Assembly (NCBI GenBank): GCA_001464165.1
Contig: LNEX01000290.1
Location: forward strand, 1 to 10,273
Reading direction: 5' to 3'
Origin: a bacterium Ga0077546
GTDB lineage: Bacteria; Cyanobacteriota; Vampirovibrionia; Obscuribacterales; Obscuribacteraceae
Length of the DNA stretch: 10,273 bases
A program made the translations under genes and the position numbers. Below, one piece after another: positions 1,998 to 10,273 of this stretch. Numbering within the stretch: position 1 is the stretch's first letter; each line of letters opens with the position of its first letter. The notes under the pieces were generated by a model. It was not told the DNA's origin. It saw only the letters and a program-made list of their open reading frames with translations, and made no database searches.

Positions 1998-3680
1998 TTA
2001 TTGTTGTAGACCAACGGCCGGGTCTTTGCTCATGGTTATGCTGGTATTGCCTTCAGTAATAGCTTGGGCGCGGGCCCGCAGCTCATCGGTTTGTTCGCGC
2101 ATACCAAGATAATAGAGAACATAGGCATACCTATCTAAGTACGGCACCAAGGCCACCGAGTCAGGTCCGCTGTTCTGCTCTGCTAGTTGCAATGCTCTTT
2201 CAAAAAGTGGTGCTGCTTCTGCATATTTCTTTTCTTGTGTGTAAATATTAGCTAGAGCAAAGGCGGCTCTTGCTTCGTTGCCGTTCTTTGAGGGGGCAGC
2301 TTTCCAGAAGTCTTGGGCCCTTAGGTAAAGGGCTTCGGCCTCAGCTAGTTTGTTTTCTTGGAGTAGACATTTACCGAGCTTATCTAAGCGCGCATAGACT
2401 TGATAATTCTCTGGTGGTTGAATGCGTTCGGTAATATCAAGAGCATCCTTTAGATTGGCCTCAGCCTCTTCGTAGTCTTTGCGAGTGAGAGCTAGTCCAC
2501 CAAGGCTGTCATAGCTGTTGGCTAGAGAAAGGTGGTGTGCCCCTAGCACAGTTGATTTGACATTTAGTGCGGCAGTGAAGAGGCGTTCAGCTAGAGACAG
2601 GTTTTCAGCGTTAGCGTCTTTGGCACTTGATTCAGTACTGTTAGCGCCATAGTTTGGTGCATTGTCTTTGCTGGCGTTTGTGGTGTTGTCGACAGAACTG
2701 CTCTTTGAGGCGTAGATGTTGCCAATTTCATCGCAAGCAATTGCCCATTCAATTAGTGGGTCGCGCATCACTGCTGACGCCTCTCCGGCCCAAGCTTGAA
2801 GCGGTTGACCGGCTTGTAGTGTCACTTTACCCTTGGCTTGGTTTCTGGCTTCATTGAGCTTGCCTTCAACAAAGGAAAGTATTTTTTCTGCTAGAGGGTT
2901 GGCTTTGGCTGCGGTTCCGTGTAGCAAGTAGAAGCGTACCATAGACGACATAGCTGGAATCAAGTGCTCGTCTTCGGCTCCGCTGGCTACTGTTTTTACT
3001 GCTAGTTCTTCTTCTAAGAGTGGCTCCGCTTCGCTGAAACGTCCGCGGATAGCAAGGAGGCGACCTAGTTCACCGGAACTCTTCGCCAGACGAAGATCGC
3101 CAGCGGGAAAATTGCGGGCTTTTTCCACAGCTTCTTTGAGTAAGCGTTCGGCGTCACCATATTCGCAATTGTATGCTGCTTTTTCACCTTTAGATTCAAG
3201 CAGATCCCAGCTATTGCTGGCGGTGCTTAGCTCTAATGTAGTTGTTTCTGCTGTTGTGTTGATTCTTCCGCTCGCTCTTTTGACGGCGTTTGTCGTTGCT
3301 GCCGTTGCTGCTGTGTTTGTTGGTACTCTATAGGGAATTTTGATGCTGCCGCCCTGAATATCTGTAGAGCTGTCAGCGCTGGTGTCGCCATTTGTGGCCA
3401 TTGTAGGCCCTTCGCCCCTGCTGCTTTCTGTTGCGATGCCAGTTGTGGTGCCGGTTGTGGTGCCGGTTGTGGTGCCGCTCATGGTGTCAGTCGTGGTGCC
3501 GCTCATGGTGTCAGTCATGGTGCCGGTCATGGCGCCGTCCGTTGCAGGAGTGCCAGGTTGAGCTGAGCATGGTGTCATCGAACACTGAGCCGTCAGCGAT
3601 AGGCTTAATGCGAATAATAGTGTTGATGCTTGACGCATTTGACTTTTAGAGAGATTGAAGTTGCTGGCGTGTCTGTTCAT
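1998..3680 (-). CDS. Secreted TPR protein (kinesin-light-chain-like repeats) with Thr-rich repeat linker
   Basis: This encodes 560 residues. A basic start and a hydrophobic core (TLLFALSLSLTAQ, about residues 20-32) form a signal peptide, with possible cleavage near Ala40 (TPCSA/QPG). Residues 51-81 are a tetrapeptide-type repeat of Met/Thr/Gly/Ser/Asp (TDTMSGTTT, then TTTG copies) encoded by 12-bp DNA repeats. A further Ala/Thr/Ser-rich stretch runs to about residue 155. The rest is TPR: units near 158-190, 196-230, 362-430 and 434-540. Their longer 42-residue spacing and pattern (LSLANSYDSLGGLALTRKDYEEAEANL-type) resemble kinesin-light-chain TPR_10/TPR_12. A second Asn/Ser-rich linker sits near 329-358. 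The ATG at 3680 is preceded only by a weak GTGAG; an internal Met15 has no better site. The role is probably an extracytoplasmic binding scaffold, partner unknown. Confidence 0.85.
   Translation of the reverse strand: MNRHASNFNLSKSQMRQASTLLFALSLSLTAQCSMTPCSAQPGTPATDGAMTGTMTDTMSGTTTDTMSGTTTGTTTGTTTGIATESSRGEGPTMATNGDTSADSSTDIQGGSIKIPYRVPTNTAATAATTNAVKRASGRINTTAETTTLELSTASNSWDLLESKGEKAAYNCEYGDAERLLKEAVEKARNFPAGDLRLAKSSGELGRLLAIRGRFSEAEPLLEEELAVKTVASGAEDEHLIPAMSSMVRFYLLHGTAAKANPLAEKILSFVEGKLNEARNQAKGKVTLQAGQPLQAWAGEASAVMRDPLIEWAIACDEIGNIYASKSSSVDNTTNASKDNAPNYGANSTESSAKDANAENLSLAERLFTAALNVKSTVLGAHHLSLANSYDSLGGLALTRKDYEEAEANLKDALDITERIQPPENYQVYARLDKLGKCLLQENKLAEAEALYLRAQDFWKAAPSKNGNEARAAFALANIYTQEKKYAEAAPLFERALQLAEQNSGPDSVALVPYLDRYAYVLYYLGMREQTDELRARAQAITEGNTSITMSKDPAVGLQQ
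3438..3530 (-). repeat. 12-bp in-frame tandem repeat (Thr/Gly/Met segment)
   Basis: On the plus strand the unit is GTGGTGCCGGTT and variants (GTGGTGCCGCTC, ATGGTGTCAGTC), repeated about eight times without gaps. Part of the array has a 24-bp higher-order period, seen in the protein as two copies of DTMSGTTT. Each unit adds four residues, so gain or loss keeps the reading frame. Confidence 0.8.
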
Positions 3681-4212: not shown

Positions 4213-5414
4213 ATGCCTAGCTTTTTCAAAAAGTCTTTTGCGGCAGGATGGCTCTTGATGCGATCTGTGATGCCTCGCATATCTTTGTTGATGTTTTGAT
4301 TGTTCATGCCGTACAAAGAGTAGGCAATAAGTTCGTGCACATCGGTAAGATAATCTTGAGCGACGCTATCGAGAACAGGACGCACGTTGGCTAGTCTGGT
4401 GACGCACCATTCGGTGTCTTCTACGCCGCTGTTTGTGGCCCTAAAGTTTTTCATCATTTCGATTTCGACGATTACTTCTTGGCTGATTCTAGGGCTGTAA
4501 AAGCGCAATCCGACAAGGGCTCGTTCTGCTCCTGGCGGAGGTGTGGCACCACTGGTGGTGACTGTGATTTCGCCCAAGGGTAGTACTGATGATTCGGTGC
4601 TTGTTGTTGCTGCCGTTGACTCAGTTGTTATCGGGACTAGTTTGTAACCGGTTAAACCTTTGAAGTAGTTCTGGCTGAAGCCGTGATCTTCAAGCACGCG
4701 TCTGATCACCGCACCGCGTTGGCCGGCGGGCGCATTGATGACGCGCCCTGGTATTGTGTAGGGATGGTTGCGCACATAGGTCTGCATGCGTTGATACGCT
4801 TCGTTTTTAAGTTTGCCCACTTCGCCACCAAGTTCATGGCTGGCGACGTTGAGTAAATCGCGCACGTTACCTGTTTTTTTTGTTGTGGTGCTAGCTGCCC
4901 CTTGATTGTTCCCGGCTGCGGCAATTGGGTTTTCGGCAGACTTCGAAGCACCAGCATCGCTGTCTGAAGAAGTAGCGTTCTCTGCCACGTTCTCTGCCAC
5001 GTTCTCTGCCACGTTGTCGGCCGCGTAGGCTGGAGCTGTCAGCAAAATTGAAGTCGACTCATTGCCGTCACCGTATTGAATCGGTGCGCTGAGCGATCTG
5101 TGGATTGACTTTAGAAGTTCTTCTTTAATTTGTGTTTTGGCCATGGCTAGAGCGCCAGTGGCAACTTGCTTTTGGAAAGGCGATAAATTTGGTGTGCTTA
5201 AGGCGGGATAAACCAACACGTCTTCGAGCATATTGTCAACAGCACCATTAACGTCAACTCTTTTAGAGAATGCTTGACCATCATGGTTTTGCACGGCCAG
5301 CATTAGAGCTTGCAGAGCGTAGAGCGGCGTTGTTGTCCAGTACCAGTAGCCACCACCAGCGATGGTGGTTAGCAAGCCGACTGTTATTGCGATTGGTGCT
5401 ACTTTGATCTTCAG
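4209..5414 (-). CDS. DUF2939-like membrane-anchored or secreted protein, probable CTG start
   Basis: The N-terminal part (GGYWYWTTTPLYALQAL followed by a stretch ending RVDVNGAVDNMLEDVL) fits the DUF2939 pattern of a short membrane segment, a YxxxP motif, a helix and a conserved D-x-x-x-V-x-x-x-L region. The C-terminal part (VGLRFYSPRISQEVIVEIEM, then TEWCVTRLANV) resembles that family's last beta strands. Between them is a low-complexity insert including three AENV units. The first conventional start is TTG at 5375 (388 residues), which lacks a ribosome binding site and cuts the membrane segment. CTG at 5412-5414 has GAGGA (5421-5425) six bases upstream and adds 13 residues, giving a typical start (M)KIKVAPIAITVGLLTTIAGGG, 401 residues in all. 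An in-frame TGA lies just upstream. The family's function is unknown. The C-terminus is a hydrophilic helix ending KKLGI. Confidence 0.75.
   Translation of the reverse strand: MKIKVAPIAITVGLLTTIAGGGYWYWTTTPLYALQALMLAVQNHDGQAFSKRVDVNGAVDNMLEDVLVYPALSTPNLSPFQKQVATGALAMAKTQIKEELLKSIHRSLSAPIQYGDGNESTSILLTAPAYAADNVAENVAENVAENATSSDSDAGASKSAENPIAAAGNNQGAASTTTKKTGNVRDLLNVASHELGGEVGKLKNEAYQRMQTYVRNHPYTIPGRVINAPAGQRGAVIRRVLEDHGFSQNYFKGLTGYKLVPITTESTAATTSTESSVLPLGEITVTTSGATPPPGAERALVGLRFYSPRISQEVIVEIEMMKNFRATNSGVEDTEWCVTRLANVRPVLDSVAQDYLTDVHELIAYSLYGMNNQNINKDMRGITDRIKSHPAAKDFLKKLGI
4977..5024 (-). repeat. 12-bp in-frame tandem repeat (AENV linker)
   Basis: GTTCTCTGCCAC on the plus strand is repeated three times exactly (4977-5012) and is followed by a diverged fourth copy (GTTGTCGGCCGC). 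In the DUF2939-like protein it encodes N-V-A-E-N-V-A-E-N-V-A-E-N. The exact identity of three copies suggests recent duplication. Confidence 0.85.
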
Positions 5415-5446
5415 ACTGTATCCTCAGATTAGCAGCTTCAAAAAAA

Positions 5447-5519
5447 TACGCCCGGTTGGATTCGAACCAACGACCTCCCGCTTAGAAGGCGGGAGCTCTA
5501 TCCGCTGAGCTACGGACGC
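5447..5519 (-). tRNA. tRNA-Arg, anticodon UCU
   Basis: On the minus strand 73 bases fold into a complete cloverleaf: acceptor GCGTCCG with CGGGCGT, D stem GCTC/GAGC, anticodon stem CCCGC/GCGGG around loop CTTCTAA (anticodon TCT, reading AGA), variable loop AGGTC, and T arm GTTGG-TTCGAAT-CCAAC. The discriminator is A, and the CCA end is not encoded. The acceptor contains G1-U72 and U4-G69 wobble pairs. Seven T bases follow directly (5440-5446), which may help end transcription after the GC-rich 3' half. It lies between two minus-strand protein genes and could share a transcript with the upstream DUF429 gene, 83 bases away. Confidence 0.95.
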
Positions 5520-5527
5520 ATATGCTC

Positions 5528-5602: not shown

Positions 5603-6700
5603 CTACGGGGTTGCCTCATTGTTTTGGGGGTATGGGACGTATATCCAGCCCTCAAGAGCGATCATATCTATTGAAATCTGCCTGGGTGGGGCTGTTTGGC
5701 CTGGATTGAGGTATGCAATCGCCGCTCCCAGTGCGGCAACGACTGCATCAAGTGCATCGTCGCAAGCGAGGGCAAATTGCTCTACATTGGGTGGTAAGAC
5801 AAGCTCTGGTACTGCTATTGCGATTCTGTTTACAGAGCGTAACTTCTCTCTGGTACCAGTGAGGTTGGTCAGTATAGATTGCCGCAGCTGCTTCGCTTCC
5901 TGGTCCTTACCTTTATATCTGCGCCAGGGGAGGCCCAGTGATTTGAGCACTGCGGCCGGATAGACCTCCATCACTGCTGCCCGGAAGGCGGTCTCGGAGT
6001 TCTGAGGGATTGGCGAAAAGCACTGCGGGTTCGCAAATGGTAAAACGTTGAAGCCGTGATTGTGCAGAGCGAGAAGCAATTGCATTCCTTGCCAAGTCAT
6101 CTTGAGCATTCCCGGATTGATTTGATGCAGGGGGCTTTGAGCCTTTGGAGCGGTGGCATTGTCTGTCAGCCTTTTGACCTCCCCTCCCATGCCTGGTTTG
6201 GCCGATTGCAGCAAGGCGAGGAGTTCAGGGAAGCTCAAACTGCTTACGCATTCGGCTAATTTGAACCAAGTGGGTGCAGTCAGAGATTTGGGTGAAGTCA
6301 GCGATTTGGGTGAAGAAAGGGAACTAGGTGAATGCCGTGAAGAAACTGAGGCATTGGCCGCTAGTAATATTTCGGCGAAGGGTGCAGGAAAGGAGAAGGG
6401 GAAGTCAAGGCCGATGATCCAGGCTGGTGGCTCACTATCCTTGACTCCTGCGCTGCTGCTTTGGAGAGCGGAGGGCTCGCTGGCGGAGGGCTCGCTGGCA
6501 CAGGTCTCGCTGGCACAGGGCTGGCTGGAAGAACATTTCTTGAGTGTCAGCAAACTCTCAAGCAGCAGGTCAGAGCCGACGTTCTCCAGGCTGTCAACAA
6601 CTAAAGTGGAAGAAACGAGTTTGCCCCTGGCGATCCACGTGGCGTTTGGTTTGGTCTTGGCTGCGCTGTAGTCACATCCGACAATATTGGCCGTGCTCAA
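5603..6700 (-). CDS. DUF429 family protein, predicted RNase H-fold nuclease
   Basis: With the start at TTG 6698-6700 the protein has 365 residues. Key DUF429 blocks are all present: IVGCDYSAAK (Asp10), WIIGLDFPFSFP (Asp99), MEVYPAAVLKSLGLPWRRYKGK (Glu245), CDDALDAVVAALGA (Asp314, Asp315, Asp318) and the terminal EGWIYVP. The acidic residues match the metal-binding positions of an RNase H-like fold, so the protein may be an active nuclease, though its substrate is unknown. Two Ser/Ala/Pro-rich inserts, at about residues 56-82 and 118-143, interrupt the fold and are encoded by tandem DNA repeats. The start was chosen because AGGAGG (6705-6710) lies four bases upstream and the first strand begins immediately. 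The longer frame to TTG 6733 has no ribosome binding site. It is divergent from the 822-residue gene. Confidence 0.85.
   Translation of the reverse strand: MSTANIVGCDYSAAKTKPNATWIARGKLVSSTLVVDSLENVGSDLLLESLLTLKKCSSSQPCASETCASEPSASEPSALQSSSAGVKDSEPPAWIIGLDFPFSFPAPFAEILLAANASVSSRHSPSSLSSPKSLTSPKSLTAPTWFKLAECVSSLSFPELLALLQSAKPGMGGEVKRLTDNATAPKAQSPLHQINPGMLKMTWQGMQLLLALHNHGFNVLPFANPQCFSPIPQNSETAFRAAVMEVYPAAVLKSLGLPWRRYKGKDQEAKQLRQSILTNLTGTREKLRSVNRIAIAVPELVLPPNVEQFALACDDALDAVVAALGAAIAYLNPGQTAPPRQISIDMIALEGWIYVPYPQNNEATP
6279..6332 (-). repeat. 18-bp in-frame tandem repeat (SPKSLT insert)
   Basis: Three units start at 6279, 6297 and 6315 on the plus strand. The first two (GTCAGAGATTTGGGTGAA and GTCAGCGATTTGGGTGAA) differ at one base; the third is diverged. 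In the DUF429 protein they encode S-P-S-S-L-S, S-P-K-S-L-T and S-P-K-S-L-T. Confidence 0.8.
6471..6530 (-). repeat. 15-bp in-frame tandem repeat (CASEP/SASEP insert)
   Basis: Four contiguous 15-bp units on the plus strand follow the pattern GAGGGCTCGCTGGCG, with CAGGTCTCGCTGGCA-type variants. They encode C-A-S-E-T, C-A-S-E-P, S-A-S-E-P and similar in the first low-complexity insert of the DUF429 protein. Confidence 0.8.
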
Positions 6701-6745
6701 CTTGCCTCCTGTCAACTGCTGGCTTAACCACAAAACGACATAGAT

Positions 6746-6875: not shown

Positions 6876-9344
6876 GTGTCAGAACAAGAGCTAACCAAAT
6901 ACGCCAATGCTGTCGGGCTTGTTTACGACTATAGCTTGCCTGTACGTTATCCTCTTGCGGCAGTCTGGCAAGTTGATGGCGAGACTGTTGTCACTTGCGC
7001 TCATTCTGTCATTCTCTATACTGAAATTCTTAAGGCACTACGGGTGCGCTTCCCTAGCAGTGGTCGCGAATACTCAATTAAGTCAGTGGTTTTCCATCCC
7101 AAAGTTGATAAGGCTGTGCTTAAAACAATGGCTAAGCACGGGCTTACTGACCCCGTAAACGGCTTGCCTTTGCAGAAGCACAACGTGGCTTTGCTCAAGC
7201 TGTCACCTAGTGCCAATGAGCTTTCTGCAGACGAGATTAAAGAAATCAATGATTCCTTCGAGCGCTTCGTGCCTGATCATGAGGCTGGGCTTGGCGGTAG
7301 TCTTGCCGAAATTGAATTGCCGCTGGTGGTTCAAACGATTACCAATGCACGAAAAGTAGGATCCGTCTCGATTCTCGATGAACGTAACCGTGTTGTGGGC
7401 AAGCTTTTTTGCCAGAATGGACGGGCCACACACGCCTACTACCATAATCTCGTTAACGAGATGGCGATCTATCAAATCATTCGGCACAAGTTCAATGGTA
7501 GCTTCTACTTCACTTCTGAAGACGAGCCTAGCTGGACGACCGTGACTGAAATTTCTAGGCCTATCGACATGCTTTTGATCGAGTCTTTGCGACGCACTGA
7601 CGAGATGGAAAAAATGGTGTCAATTGTCGGTGGACCCTCTAGTTTGTTTACAAGAGTCACTCCCCAGCCTAATTACGACATACTGCCACCAGATTCTAGA
7701 GAAGCGACAAAGTTAATTTGGCCATTTCTTGATGGTGGCACTCCTTTGGGTCTGATGTGGCAGGTTGCTGGAATAGACGATTTTTCTATTTACGCTGCCA
7801 TGCAAGAGCTTGTTAAAACGCGGCAGATTAGCTACTTTGAGGCTCCATTCCTTAAAGGTAGCGATATTGTTCCGCTGCCACTTGGAGTGAAGACTCCCCT
7901 TTCCCCTAATGATCTTGTAACTGCTCTGTGGGTAGAAGATGCATCTTTGGCACCACTTTTACGTCCCGGAACATTGCTTGGTAGTGTTAAAGATCTAGAT
8001 CCATCCCATGTGCTGCACAATATCGGACTTCCATTTGAAGCGGCTGGTTGTCCTATTTTCAAAGATGGTACCGTGATTGGCATTCATTGTGGTGCGGTGC
8101 CACCAGATCCAGCTGTGGTGGCGCCAGATGGTGGCTTCCATCAGATGATTTGGGTGGAGCAAGTGATTGAATGTTTGAAGAATGCTGGGGAGACGACACT
8201 AGCCAGGAAACTCACTCTCTCAGGCAATGGAGACGAGACTGAAGTTTCTGGACGCTTCGGTGGCTGCCGTCAAGTTGCCCGCATTCAGTGTCCGAAATGC
8301 GGCCGCTCGTCAATGGACGAGCCTAATTTTTGCAAAGGCTGCGGACAGCGATTGATCCAAGATTCTGACTATAAAGGTCCGATAGCAAGAAAAACAAAGG
8401 CGCAGACAAGAGCTAAAACTCGACTAGTTGGAAAGACTAGAACCCGCACTGGCCCTCAGATTATTCGACCTGTGACTAATGCTAAGACTTATAACCCGGC
8501 TTTGCTGGCCATGACTTTAGTGCTTATATTTGCTGGTGGTGGAGCTGCTGCCCTCGCCATGATTCCCAAGCCAAATATAATTAATACTAGTCCTGTAATT
8601 TTGCCCAATCAGAGCCAGGCTTGGTTAGCTACTACTTTGGCTGAGTTTACTCCTGGGCCTGTAGTGATGCATGACAAGAATTATGTGTTTACTGGAAGGG
8701 CAAAATTTGGCGTTGATGTAATGGCTAAGCAGTCATTCTATATGTATGCTTTTCTCGTGCAGAATTCGGGCAAAGTGATTCTACATACTCCATCTTCGGC
8801 GGCTAATGATGTGATTCTTGACGCTGGAGCCCGTTACATACTTGTGGGTGATGGTTTAGAAAAAATCCCGCTGGCAAAGGCTGTCACAGCTTTTGGCTGC
8901 GACAACAGTGACGGTACTGAGAAAATCTTACTTGTCGCTAGCGGTATGAAGAGTGATTTGTTGACCATGAGCGATCCGCTGGCTCAAGAGAAAGCTATTG
9001 AGCAGTTTGTAAACCGTTCACTGCAGCTTCTAAGTTGTGACGAAAGTGGCAATGGAGTTATTGTTGATGCTAAGGAGCTAGGTGAGCATTTCTTTGACGA
9101 CAATAAGCCTAAGAACGGCAAATTTGGTTCTAGTGGTTTGATGGGCCGTGAAGTCTATATTACCCAAGTGGACGTCAGGCACAAGAAAGACCTCACGCTT
9201 GATAGTCAATTGCCTAGTAATATCACCCCGGGTAATGCGAGTCCAACCAATATCAGCCCAACCAATACAACTCCGACCAATATCAGCCCGACCAATACAA
9301 CTCCGACCAATATCAGCCCAACCAATACAACCCCGACCAATTAA
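6876..9344 (+). CDS. Membrane protein: degenerate trypsin-like halves around DUF4388, zinc ribbon, TM helix, DUF4384-like domain
   Basis: This encodes 822 residues. GTG 6876 is the first possible start (in-frame TAA at 6870); its ribosome binding site is weak. Residues 27-110 resemble the first half of a trypsin-like protease: AVWQVDGETVVTCAHS with His43, then HNVALLKL, where Asn103 replaces the catalytic Asp. Residues 150-222 fit DUF4388/PATAN (RVVGKLFCQNGRATHAYYHN, then FNGSFYF). Residues 275-322 look like the winged helix that often follows it. Residues 340-433 resemble the second protease half, but FEAAGCPIF puts Ala390 where GDSGGP has Ser. A zinc ribbon follows (Cys472, 475, 486, 489), then a basic linker (500-530) and one membrane helix (about 541-562). 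The outer region 600-700 resembles DUF4384 (QSFYMYAFLVQNSGKVILH, then GTEKILLVASG). The tail is an Asn/Pro/Thr repeat. Probable role: membrane-spanning signalling or scaffold protein without protease activity; the partner is unknown. Confidence 0.85.
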   Translation: MSEQELTKYANAVGLVYDYSLPVRYPLAAVWQVDGETVVTCAHSVILYTEILKALRVRFPSSGREYSIKSVVFHPKVDKAVLKTMAKHGLTDPVNGLPLQKHNVALLKLSPSANELSADEIKEINDSFERFVPDHEAGLGGSLAEIELPLVVQTITNARKVGSVSILDERNRVVGKLFCQNGRATHAYYHNLVNEMAIYQIIRHKFNGSFYFTSEDEPSWTTVTEISRPIDMLLIESLRRTDEMEKMVSIVGGPSSLFTRVTPQPNYDILPPDSREATKLIWPFLDGGTPLGLMWQVAGIDDFSIYAAMQELVKTRQISYFEAPFLKGSDIVPLPLGVKTPLSPNDLVTALWVEDASLAPLLRPGTLLGSVKDLDPSHVLHNIGLPFEAAGCPIFKDGTVIGIHCGAVPPDPAVVAPDGGFHQMIWVEQVIECLKNAGETTLARKLTLSGNGDETEVSGRFGGCRQVARIQCPKCGRSSMDEPNFCKGCGQRLIQDSDYKGPIARKTKAQTRAKTRLVGKTRTRTGPQIIRPVTNAKTYNPALLAMTLVLIFAGGGAAALAMIPKPNIINTSPVILPNQSQAWLATTLAEFTPGPVVMHDKNYVFTGRAKFGVDVMAKQSFYMYAFLVQNSGKVILHTPSSAANDVILDAGARYILVGDGLEKIPLAKAVTAFGCDNSDGTEKILLVASGMKSDLLTMSDPLAQEKAIEQFVNRSLQLLSCDESGNGVIVDAKELGEHFFDDNKPKNGKFGSSGLMGREVYITQVDVRHKKDLTLDSQLPSNITPGNASPTNISPTNTTPTNISPTNTTPTNISPTNTTPTN
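9246..9341 (+). repeat. 30-bp in-frame tandem repeat at the C-terminus (PTNIS/PTNTT)
   Basis: Three 30-bp units start at 9246, 9276 and 9306 and differ at only one or two positions. Each is made of two 15-bp halves (ACCAATATCAGCCCA and ACCAATACAACTCCG). A partial fourth copy runs straight into the TAA stop. The preceding 30 bases are a more diverged copy. The repeat encodes the last residues of the 822-residue protein, alternating N-I-S-P-T and N-T-T-P-T. Confidence 0.9.
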
Positions 9345-9445
9345 ACTAGAACAGTTAGAACGTCTTGCCTCCTAATTTGATTTTGATAGCAGTAGGGCAA
9401 GAGTATTCAGGAAACCCAGTAAATTTGTAGACAGAGGAGATGAAC

Positions 9446-10273
9446 ATGAAAGCGCTTGAGCTAATCAGAAAATCTTGCGCAGTTTCGCTGGCTGTGGCAC
9501 TTGGGGTAGTGATTTCTACCGGTGTTTACGCCCAGGAGCAGAGCGGGGCAAAGGGTCTCTTCTTCGAACAGCTGGAGAAACCAACTGAGTCACTCAACAC
9601 TGGCTTGCGCTACTGGATTGAGCTGAAGCGCGGCAATAACGTTACTCGGGTGAGCAATAAGTTTCAGTTTAAGACTAATGACAGCATTCGTTTTCACGTT
9701 CGCTCTAATATTGATGGCTATGCCTATATCTTGCTCTCTAGCGGCAGTCGAGGGGAGCAGAGCGTGCTTTTCCCAGACAATAGAGCAGCTGAGAACAACA
9801 AAGTAGACAGAGGCAAAGATTACGCATTGCCTTCAGACGGCTACTTAACTTTTGACGAGAACCCTGGTCTTGAAAAGCTGACACTGCTGCTTTCGCGTTC
9901 ACCTATGGACGCACAGGCTTATCTGCAAAAGCCCCAAAAAGAAGTGACTATGATTGCTTCGGCTCAGACTGGTAGTAAAGACCTAGTGCCTGCTCGAATC
10001 TATGTTTCTTACAACGCTCCTAGAGTTGAGGCACCTGTTTTCTTGCCAGCCACGACTCCAACTAAGCCGGAGAAAGTGACCAAAGTAGAGAAGACCGAAA
10101 AAATTGCCAAAGTCACTCATCCAAAGGTTACTCACTCAGCTAAGAGCGAGCACTCCGAGAGAAATTCGCTGGCCTCTGCCGCTGACGATAAACCGAAAGC
10201 CGCACATCGCCCCGTGGGGAAGGTGAAGCGCGCAGTTGCAGCTAGTTCTTCAAGTAATGCTGCCGCTGCGTCT
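9446..10273 (+). CDS. Secreted DUF4384 protein (3' end outside window)
   Basis: The frame is open from ATG 9446 to the window end, giving 276 residues so far. The start was chosen because GAGGAG (9434-9439) lies six bases upstream; an in-frame ATG at 9440 touches that site and is less likely. Residues 1-29 are a signal peptide (LIRKSCAVSLAVALGVVIST core, cleavage VYA/QEQ). Residues 52-155 fit DUF4384: a first strand (GLRYWIELKRG), then DSIRFHVRSNIDGYAYILL, QSVLFPDNRAAENN and LEKLTLLLSRSP. From about residue 200 it becomes a Lys/Thr/Val/Ala/Ser-rich linker (KVTKVEKTEKIAKVTHPKV), perhaps leading to another domain beyond the window. DUF4384 domains usually accompany signalling or protease modules and have no proven enzymatic role. 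It lies 101 bases after the 822-residue gene, on the same strand and with the same domain type, so they are probably functionally linked. Confidence 0.85.
   Translation, partial: MKALELIRKSCAVSLAVALGVVISTGVYAQEQSGAKGLFFEQLEKPTESLNTGLRYWIELKRGNNVTRVSNKFQFKTNDSIRFHVRSNIDGYAYILLSSGSRGEQSVLFPDNRAAENNKVDRGKDYALPSDGYLTFDENPGLEKLTLLLSRSPMDAQAYLQKPQKEVTMIASAQTGSKDLVPARIYVSYNAPRVEAPVFLPATTPTKPEKVTKVEKTEKIAKVTHPKVTHSAKSEHSERNSLASAADDKPKAAHRPVGKVKRAVAASSSSNAAAAS

Follow-up and report, generated by a model that had tools for sequence, protein, structure and literature searches.

The stretch of DNA analysed here, referred to as the window, comprises positions 1 to 10,273 of contig LNEX01000290.1 from the Obscuribacteraceae bacterium Ga0077546, and it carries an open reading frame (ORF) of 822 codons on the plus strand (6876..9344). 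The product of this ORF, the window protein, looks like a pseudoprotease: a predicted trypsin-like fold whose two barrels are separated by an inserted DUF4388/winged-helix-like module, and which is followed by a zinc ribbon, a membrane helix and a DUF4384-like domain. The predicted fold, the split, the loss of the catalytic triad and the gene neighbourhood are all shown by computation. With a probability of roughly 0.55, we infer that the window protein is a pseudoprotease adaptor anchored in the membrane, having its DUF4384-like domain outside and its DUF4388 module inside the cell.

A preliminary description of this DNA had remarked on the unusual domain architecture, which is confirmed here, and its author knew of no described protein with this order of domains. 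In our searches of the open literature, no title or abstract start named the architecture and no paper combining DUF4388 with trypsin was found. To that description our analysis adds the loss of catalytic residues (His43, Asn103, Ala390), an intact uninterrupted paralogue in most genomes of the family, and a conserved DUF4384 neighbour.

A trypsin-like double barrel divided by an insert

In the predicted structure, the first trypsin-like β-barrel occupies approximately residues 10-111 (6903..7208), with DSSP strands at 13-18, 26-34, 37-40, 55-59, 64-73 and 105-110. The second barrel, together with a C-terminal helix, occupies approximately residues 340-437 (7893..8186), with strands at 347-353, 360-372, 375-381, 393-396, 399-407 and 422-426, and the helix at 428-436. 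The model thus has two six-stranded barrels, which are predicted to pack as they do in solved trypsin-like proteases of the S1 type; the top VIA-align row for it was the S1C domain of RsgI9. Between the barrels lies the insert, approximately residues 112-339 (7209..7892), which is absent from uninterrupted paralogues according to the predicted structure and the model alignment.

The two halves are also recognized separately at the sequence level. A profile of 120 uninterrupted homologues matched the window protein at residues 29-78 and 356-407, with independent E-values (i-E) of about 1e-9 (7e-10 and 1e-9, respectively) and a total of 73.5 bits, while 500 shuffles and the reversed sequence gave at most 2.5 bits; the paralogue itself is a Trypsin_2 protein, and both halves are therefore homologous to the trypsin family. 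A single uninterrupted protein used as query also found the two halves of split proteins separately, for instance at 7e-10 and 4e-7 in one 787-codon frame of genome G045. The preliminary description had proposed that a DUF4388/winged-helix insertion splits a trypsin-like fold. This proposal is supported by the complementary barrels predicted at 13-110 and 347-426, by the DUF4388 and helical winged-helix-like parts lying between them in the model, and by the match of each half to a trypsin-like profile, though neither directly matches the Pfam trypsin models. The split double-barrel architecture is, as a model, well supported.

When scanned with Pfam, the window protein gave DUF4388 (141-244), DUF4384 below the cut-off (611-689) and weak zinc ribbons (approximately 470-493), and no trypsin domain was matched directly. 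The sole NCBIfam match was TcaA at 0.17, which is the chance level, and searching solved structures by sequence gave no useful result (best E 0.25). The 56 proteins obtained in a protein search include the window's own, and several are annotated as “DUF4388 domain-containing protein”; the annotated homologues come from Obscuribacter, Obscuribacterales, Melainabacteria or Cyanobacteria. Contigs of five related genomes are labelled as an unclassified bacterium, Obscuribacterales, Cyanobacteriota, an uncultured bacterium and a Cyanobacteria bacterium.

Loss of the catalytic triad in split proteins

The window protein carries His-Asn-Ala where an active protease of this fold has His-Asp-Ser together with a GDSG motif. 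Across the 54 window-type rows of the alignment (P0053 and P0056 being excluded), His43 (7002..7004) is conserved in 52; Asn103 (7182..7184), at the catalytic Asp position, is Asn in all 54 and in 55/55 listed proteins; and Ala390 (8043..8045), at the catalytic Ser position, is Ala in 35 rows, Ser in 11, Thr in 5 and Cys in 3. No row of this alignment has Gly at position 388 or Asp at position 389, in contrast to the GDSG motif of the uninterrupted paralogue.

None of the 55 listed window-type proteins has His-Asp-Ser (this count excludes P0056, a fragment that lacks the N-terminal half). The same is true of a second split set, obtained by a mixed split-type search in which 120 of 131 matches were listed: His-Asp-Ser occurs in 0/120, Asp is present in 120/120, no His was seen in any of the 119 with a residue at that position, and Ser is aligned in 32/120. 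Thus, 0/175 listed split proteins retain the triad, and its loss accompanies the insert in every listed protein. Given these replacements and those in the window protein, an active protease was rejected, and the split proteins look, from their sequences, like pseudoproteases. As the window type has Asn for Asp and the second type has Asp without His, the two split types have lost different catalytic residues. Among the ORFs of the loci collected, His-Asp-Ser was present in 33/33 uninterrupted and 0/51 split proteins, although five of the 51 lack at least one of the positions, and the 33/33 count rests on a profile seeded with 20 ORFs that were picked for containing GDSG, a choice biased towards an intact Ser.

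The inserted module

DUF4388 (residues 141-244; 7296..7607) is assigned by Pfam (PF14332, 2.1e-8), its 34.6 bits exceeding the curated cut-off of 25, as the preliminary description had anticipated. We take DUF4388 to be the PATAN domain; the Pfam matches to the window protein (E up to 1) include no receiver domain, and it does not have the makeup of a PATAN response regulator. The helical part that follows (approximately residues 246-323; 7611..7844) is winged-helix-like, with one short strand after the helices and no full wing, and its best likeness, a moderate match, is to SEA/GATOR1 subunits. As a Foldseek search with the insert alone gave no match at E 0.001 or better, the DUF4388 part is left without an assigned solved relative. 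Pfam misses DUF4388 in many proteins of the second split set, while matches to the split model extend across the insert region in 120/120 listed.

The module is also found outside split proteases, in six proteins of 442-492 codons (L096, L098, L101, L097, L099 and L100). In the three that were scanned (L096, L098 and L101), a cNMP_binding domain precedes DUF4388 and the C-terminus has no Pfam match, and the idea that the six are split proteases with decayed barrels was dropped on account of that preceding domain. Genomes G001, G002 and G003 contain 16, 19 and 18 DUF4388 matches, respectively, many of them in ORFs of 510-600 codons.

Zinc ribbon, membrane helix and DUF4384-like domain

Downstream of the second barrel, a putative zinc ribbon (residues 470-493; 8283..8354) is matched by weak profiles below their cut-offs; its two CxxC pairs, with all four Cys invariant in 54/54 rows, agree with the earlier assignment. 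A single hydrophobic helix, also noted previously, lies at residues 542-560 (8499..8555), as judged by hydropathy and a charge tally, and is preceded by a K/R-rich stretch. The DUF4384-like domain (residues 611-689; 8706..8942) matches Pfam at 1.8e-4, its 22 bits falling below the cut-off of 27, whereas the relatives P0054, P0055, L058, L060 and L092 exceed this cut-off.

A simple hydropathy rule detects a membrane helix in 38/52 split proteins, the window's included. Within the 30 residues flanking the helix on each side, K/R residues are more numerous before it in 31 of these 38 proteins, fewer in 2 and equal in 5. This bias suggests that the barrels, the DUF4388 module and the zinc ribbon are cytoplasmic and that the DUF4384-like domain is outside. 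Of the “outer DUF4384” domain put forward earlier, the outer placement has this charge bias (31/38) in its favour, and the domain match itself stays below the cut-off in the window protein.

The uninterrupted paralogue

Matches of uninterrupted ORFs (approximately 420-475 codons) to the split model are confined to its two barrel segments, plus its C-terminal part in 25/33. Their barrel matches are 12-24 residues apart (measurable in 23/33), versus approximately 230 in the window protein. Two of these proteins were scanned, and both are Trypsin_2 by Pfam (3.1e-9 and 9.2e-8) with no zinc-ribbon match. In a homologue search with a single-member query, separate from the GDSG-seeded profile, His-Asp-Ser was present in 120/120 listed (of 220 matches), and each of the 120 carries a precomputed PF13365 annotation.

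Each of 50 genomes sampled from the family to which G001 belongs, G001 being the genome nearest the window, matches the alignment. Uninterrupted proteases at 200 bits or more were seen in 41/50, one of them as a fragment. With lower limits of 400 bits for the window type (counting short forms and fragments) and 200 bits for the uninterrupted type, a hand tally gave 36 genomes with both, 1 with the window type alone, 5 with the uninterrupted type alone (including G027, which has window-type fragments below the threshold) and 8 with neither (Fisher p 2e-5, kinship not corrected). In broader draws, with two or three candidates scored per genome, 53/289 genomes of the class matched (E 1e-10), three of them outside the 50-genome family draw, and 1/386 genomes of the phylum matched (E 1e-20).

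Evolution of the split forms

In a tree of the barrel columns (3/85 rows dropped for gaps), one branch (support 100/99) sets the 33 uninterrupted proteins apart from the others; the barrels have diverged widely, with a branch of 1.6 changes per column. Support for the branching order of the split types is weak (69/77), and at least two changes between Asn and Asp are needed. The separation fits a single change of insert state, possibly one insertion, in a tree that has no outgroup, in which long branches meet, and which cannot show direction. Trypsin-like proteases at large have a contiguous layout; for that reason, and not from the tree, the split form is taken as derived and the unsplit layout as probably ancestral.

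A sister split type (L104, L109 and related ORFs of approximately 760-907 codons) has kept Asp and lost His. L104 and L109, the two that were scanned, have a TonB_2-like C-terminus in place of DUF4384. There is also a short split form (P0046-P0052, and L056, L057, L059 and L061 with 493-498 codons), which ends at the zinc ribbon and has neither helix nor DUF4384. We tentatively suggest, at somewhat less than even odds, that: a family of transmembrane pseudoprotease receptors arose in Obscuribacterales-type bacteria when a DUF4388 module was inserted into the interdomain linker of a membrane-bound protease; the family diversified through loss of different catalytic residues and exchange of the outer domain (DUF4384, TonB_2-like or none); and the unsplit protease was mostly kept as a partner or effector.

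The neighbouring DUF4384 gene

The next gene on the plus strand (9440..10273), which leaves the window at its end, encodes a DUF4384 protein (5.9e-12) with a signal-peptide-like N-terminus, marked by a hydrophobic segment. A related DUF4384 ORF lies 3-138 bases downstream on the same strand for 25/25 split ORFs of L001-L005 and L036-L055, and just upstream of the split gene in L060 and L092. As the profile was seeded from such neighbours, these counts measure adjacency and not discovery. For the remaining 24/51 split ORFs, no related DUF4384 ORF was present in the flanks seen. Among these are the second split type, the four short forms (which lack helix and DUF4384) and some ORFs at the end of a contig. 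Adjacency to a DUF4384 gene is conserved in the window type. Uninterrupted proteases had a DUF4384 match among their neighbours in three scanned cases. In G030 (L093), an uninterrupted gene, a DUF4384 gene and a split gene follow each other on one strand, and in G008 the three occur in the same order on one strand and within 6.2 kb, the first two being separated by other ORFs.

For L058, the DUF4384 gene became visible only in the longer locus L094, past a caspase gene. At this locus, in G037, a caspase-domain/TPR protein (Peptidase_C14, 8e-17) is encoded between a DUF4384 gene and the split gene (L094:4295-6793 and L094:6844-7668, both on the minus strand); the caspase, DUF4384 and split pseudoprotease genes are all on one strand. 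A known defence system was ruled out, as neither the window protein nor its neighbour had a PADLOC match at E up to 1.

Possible function and alternative explanations

If the window protein is an adaptor, its topology, partner binding and signalling might be envisaged as follows: the outer DUF4384-like domain would contact the secreted-type DUF4384 protein of the adjoining gene; the dead protease would serve as a cytoplasmic binding platform alongside the DUF4388 module and the zinc ribbon; and a change in the outer complex would be passed through the membrane helix to the exposed DUF4388 module, which would then bind or release a cytoplasmic partner. Several observations weigh against this scheme. 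Ser is retained at position 390 in 11/54 window-type rows and at the aligned position in 32/120 listed proteins of the second split set. The winged-helix assignment, made on a model, is moderate. Charge counts are the basis of the topology, and those of the uninterrupted paralogue are divided (12 N-in, 15 N-out and 6 equal; n=33). The link to the DUF4384 partner is drawn from gene adjacency alone, with the signal-peptide-like start scored for the window's neighbour only; L102, L103, L107 and L108, whose C-termini align to the DUF4384 part, have no DUF4384 gene in flanks of 1.2-1.9 kb, and the sister type has no DUF4384 neighbour in the flanks seen. Finally, G001 has the window type and shows no uninterrupted paralogue.

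The main competing explanation, which we regard as rather unlikely, is that the split pseudoprotease regulates the intact paralogue, either by pairing with it or by competing for its substrates, as the dead protease MamO is reported to do for MamE in magnetotactic bacteria (PMC4794232). This would agree with that precedent, with the co-occurrence of both types in 36/50 genomes (Fisher p 2e-5, kinship not corrected) and with the colinear genes of G030 and G008. However, the two genes are on different contigs in many genomes, the barrels are far apart in sequence (a branch of 1.6 changes per column), G001 has the split type without the uninterrupted one, and such a role leaves the insert unexplained. 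Weak or unusual catalysis by the split protein is very improbable: His43 is present in 52/54 rows and a Ser, Thr or Cys at 390 in 19/54, but Asn replaces Asp in 54/54, Gly388 and Asp389 of the paralogue's GDSG are found in none, and the window protein itself has Ala at 390. We likewise give little credence to a membrane-bound transcription factor whose winged helix binds DNA, as the closest likeness is to SEA/GATOR1 subunits, which to our knowledge do not bind DNA, and the helices are not followed by a full wing. That the two halves are unrelated β-domains merely resembling trypsin would fit the failure of Pfam alone to see a trypsin domain; this idea is scarcely credible, and it was rejected because of the structural alignment and the separate profile matches of both halves.

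Comparison with known proteins

Pseudoproteases and domain insertions are each already known. Unlike such trypsin-like peptidases as the V8 and Esp proteases, HtrA/DegS and the RsgI9 S1C domain, the window protein has no triad; its barrels are separated by approximately 230 inserted residues. With the uninterrupted protease of its own bacterial family it shares the order protease, helix and DUF4384-like domain, although the latter has 12-24 residues between its barrels, His-Asp-Ser in 120/120 listed and no zinc-ribbon match in the two scanned. We know of no signalling domain inserted between the barrels of MamO of Magnetospirillum, and of no insert in the S1C domain of RsgI9 of Clostridium thermocellum. 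MamO is described as a repurposed trypsin-like protease whose active site, like that of the window protein, is degenerate; it stands beside a partner protease, MamE, and acts in metal binding and biomineralization (PMC4794232). RsgI9 is a transmembrane signalling protein whose sensor part contains the protease-like S1C domain; this is the outer sensor of an anti-sigma factor and is able to bind cellulose (PMC12203970).

PATAN is a signalling adaptor in PixE, PixG, LsiR and PilG of Synechocystis, and binding to the pilus motor PilB is described for the PATAN domains of regulators in cyanobacteria (PMC7690835, PMC10519157); these domains are located within response regulators and not inside a protease fold. 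Pseudo-orthocaspases of alphaproteobacteria share a trypsin-like domain and a C-terminal DUF4384 in one protein, but they have an intact His-Asp-Ser plus a p20 caspase-like domain, and DUF4388 is not named in the passage that describes them (PMC6426788).

One bacterial family holds an intact unsplit relative, a triad-less split version and free forms of the inserted module. Because all three forms occur in one family and the insert tracks the loss of the triad, this is a clean natural case for the conversion of an enzyme into a signalling scaffold. The architecture also unites DUF4388 and DUF4384 in a single protein whose inside-outside layout can be tested, and it lends structural meaning to “DUF4388 domain-containing protein”, a name given automatically.

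Other features of the window

The window protein ends in a low-complexity tail rich in T, N, S and P, encoded by a tandem repeat of a 30-base unit (10 amino acids; 9242..9341, plus strand). Further repeats in the window are located at 3437-3537, 4976-5026, 6271-6315 and 6472-6528. Upstream and divergent from the split gene lies a DUF429 gene (5603-6733, minus strand; Pfam), and in L001 and L005, ORFs that resemble it by eye also lie on the upstream side of the split gene. Between the two upstream genes of the window is a tRNA-Arg gene (anticodon TCT; 5446-5520, minus strand).
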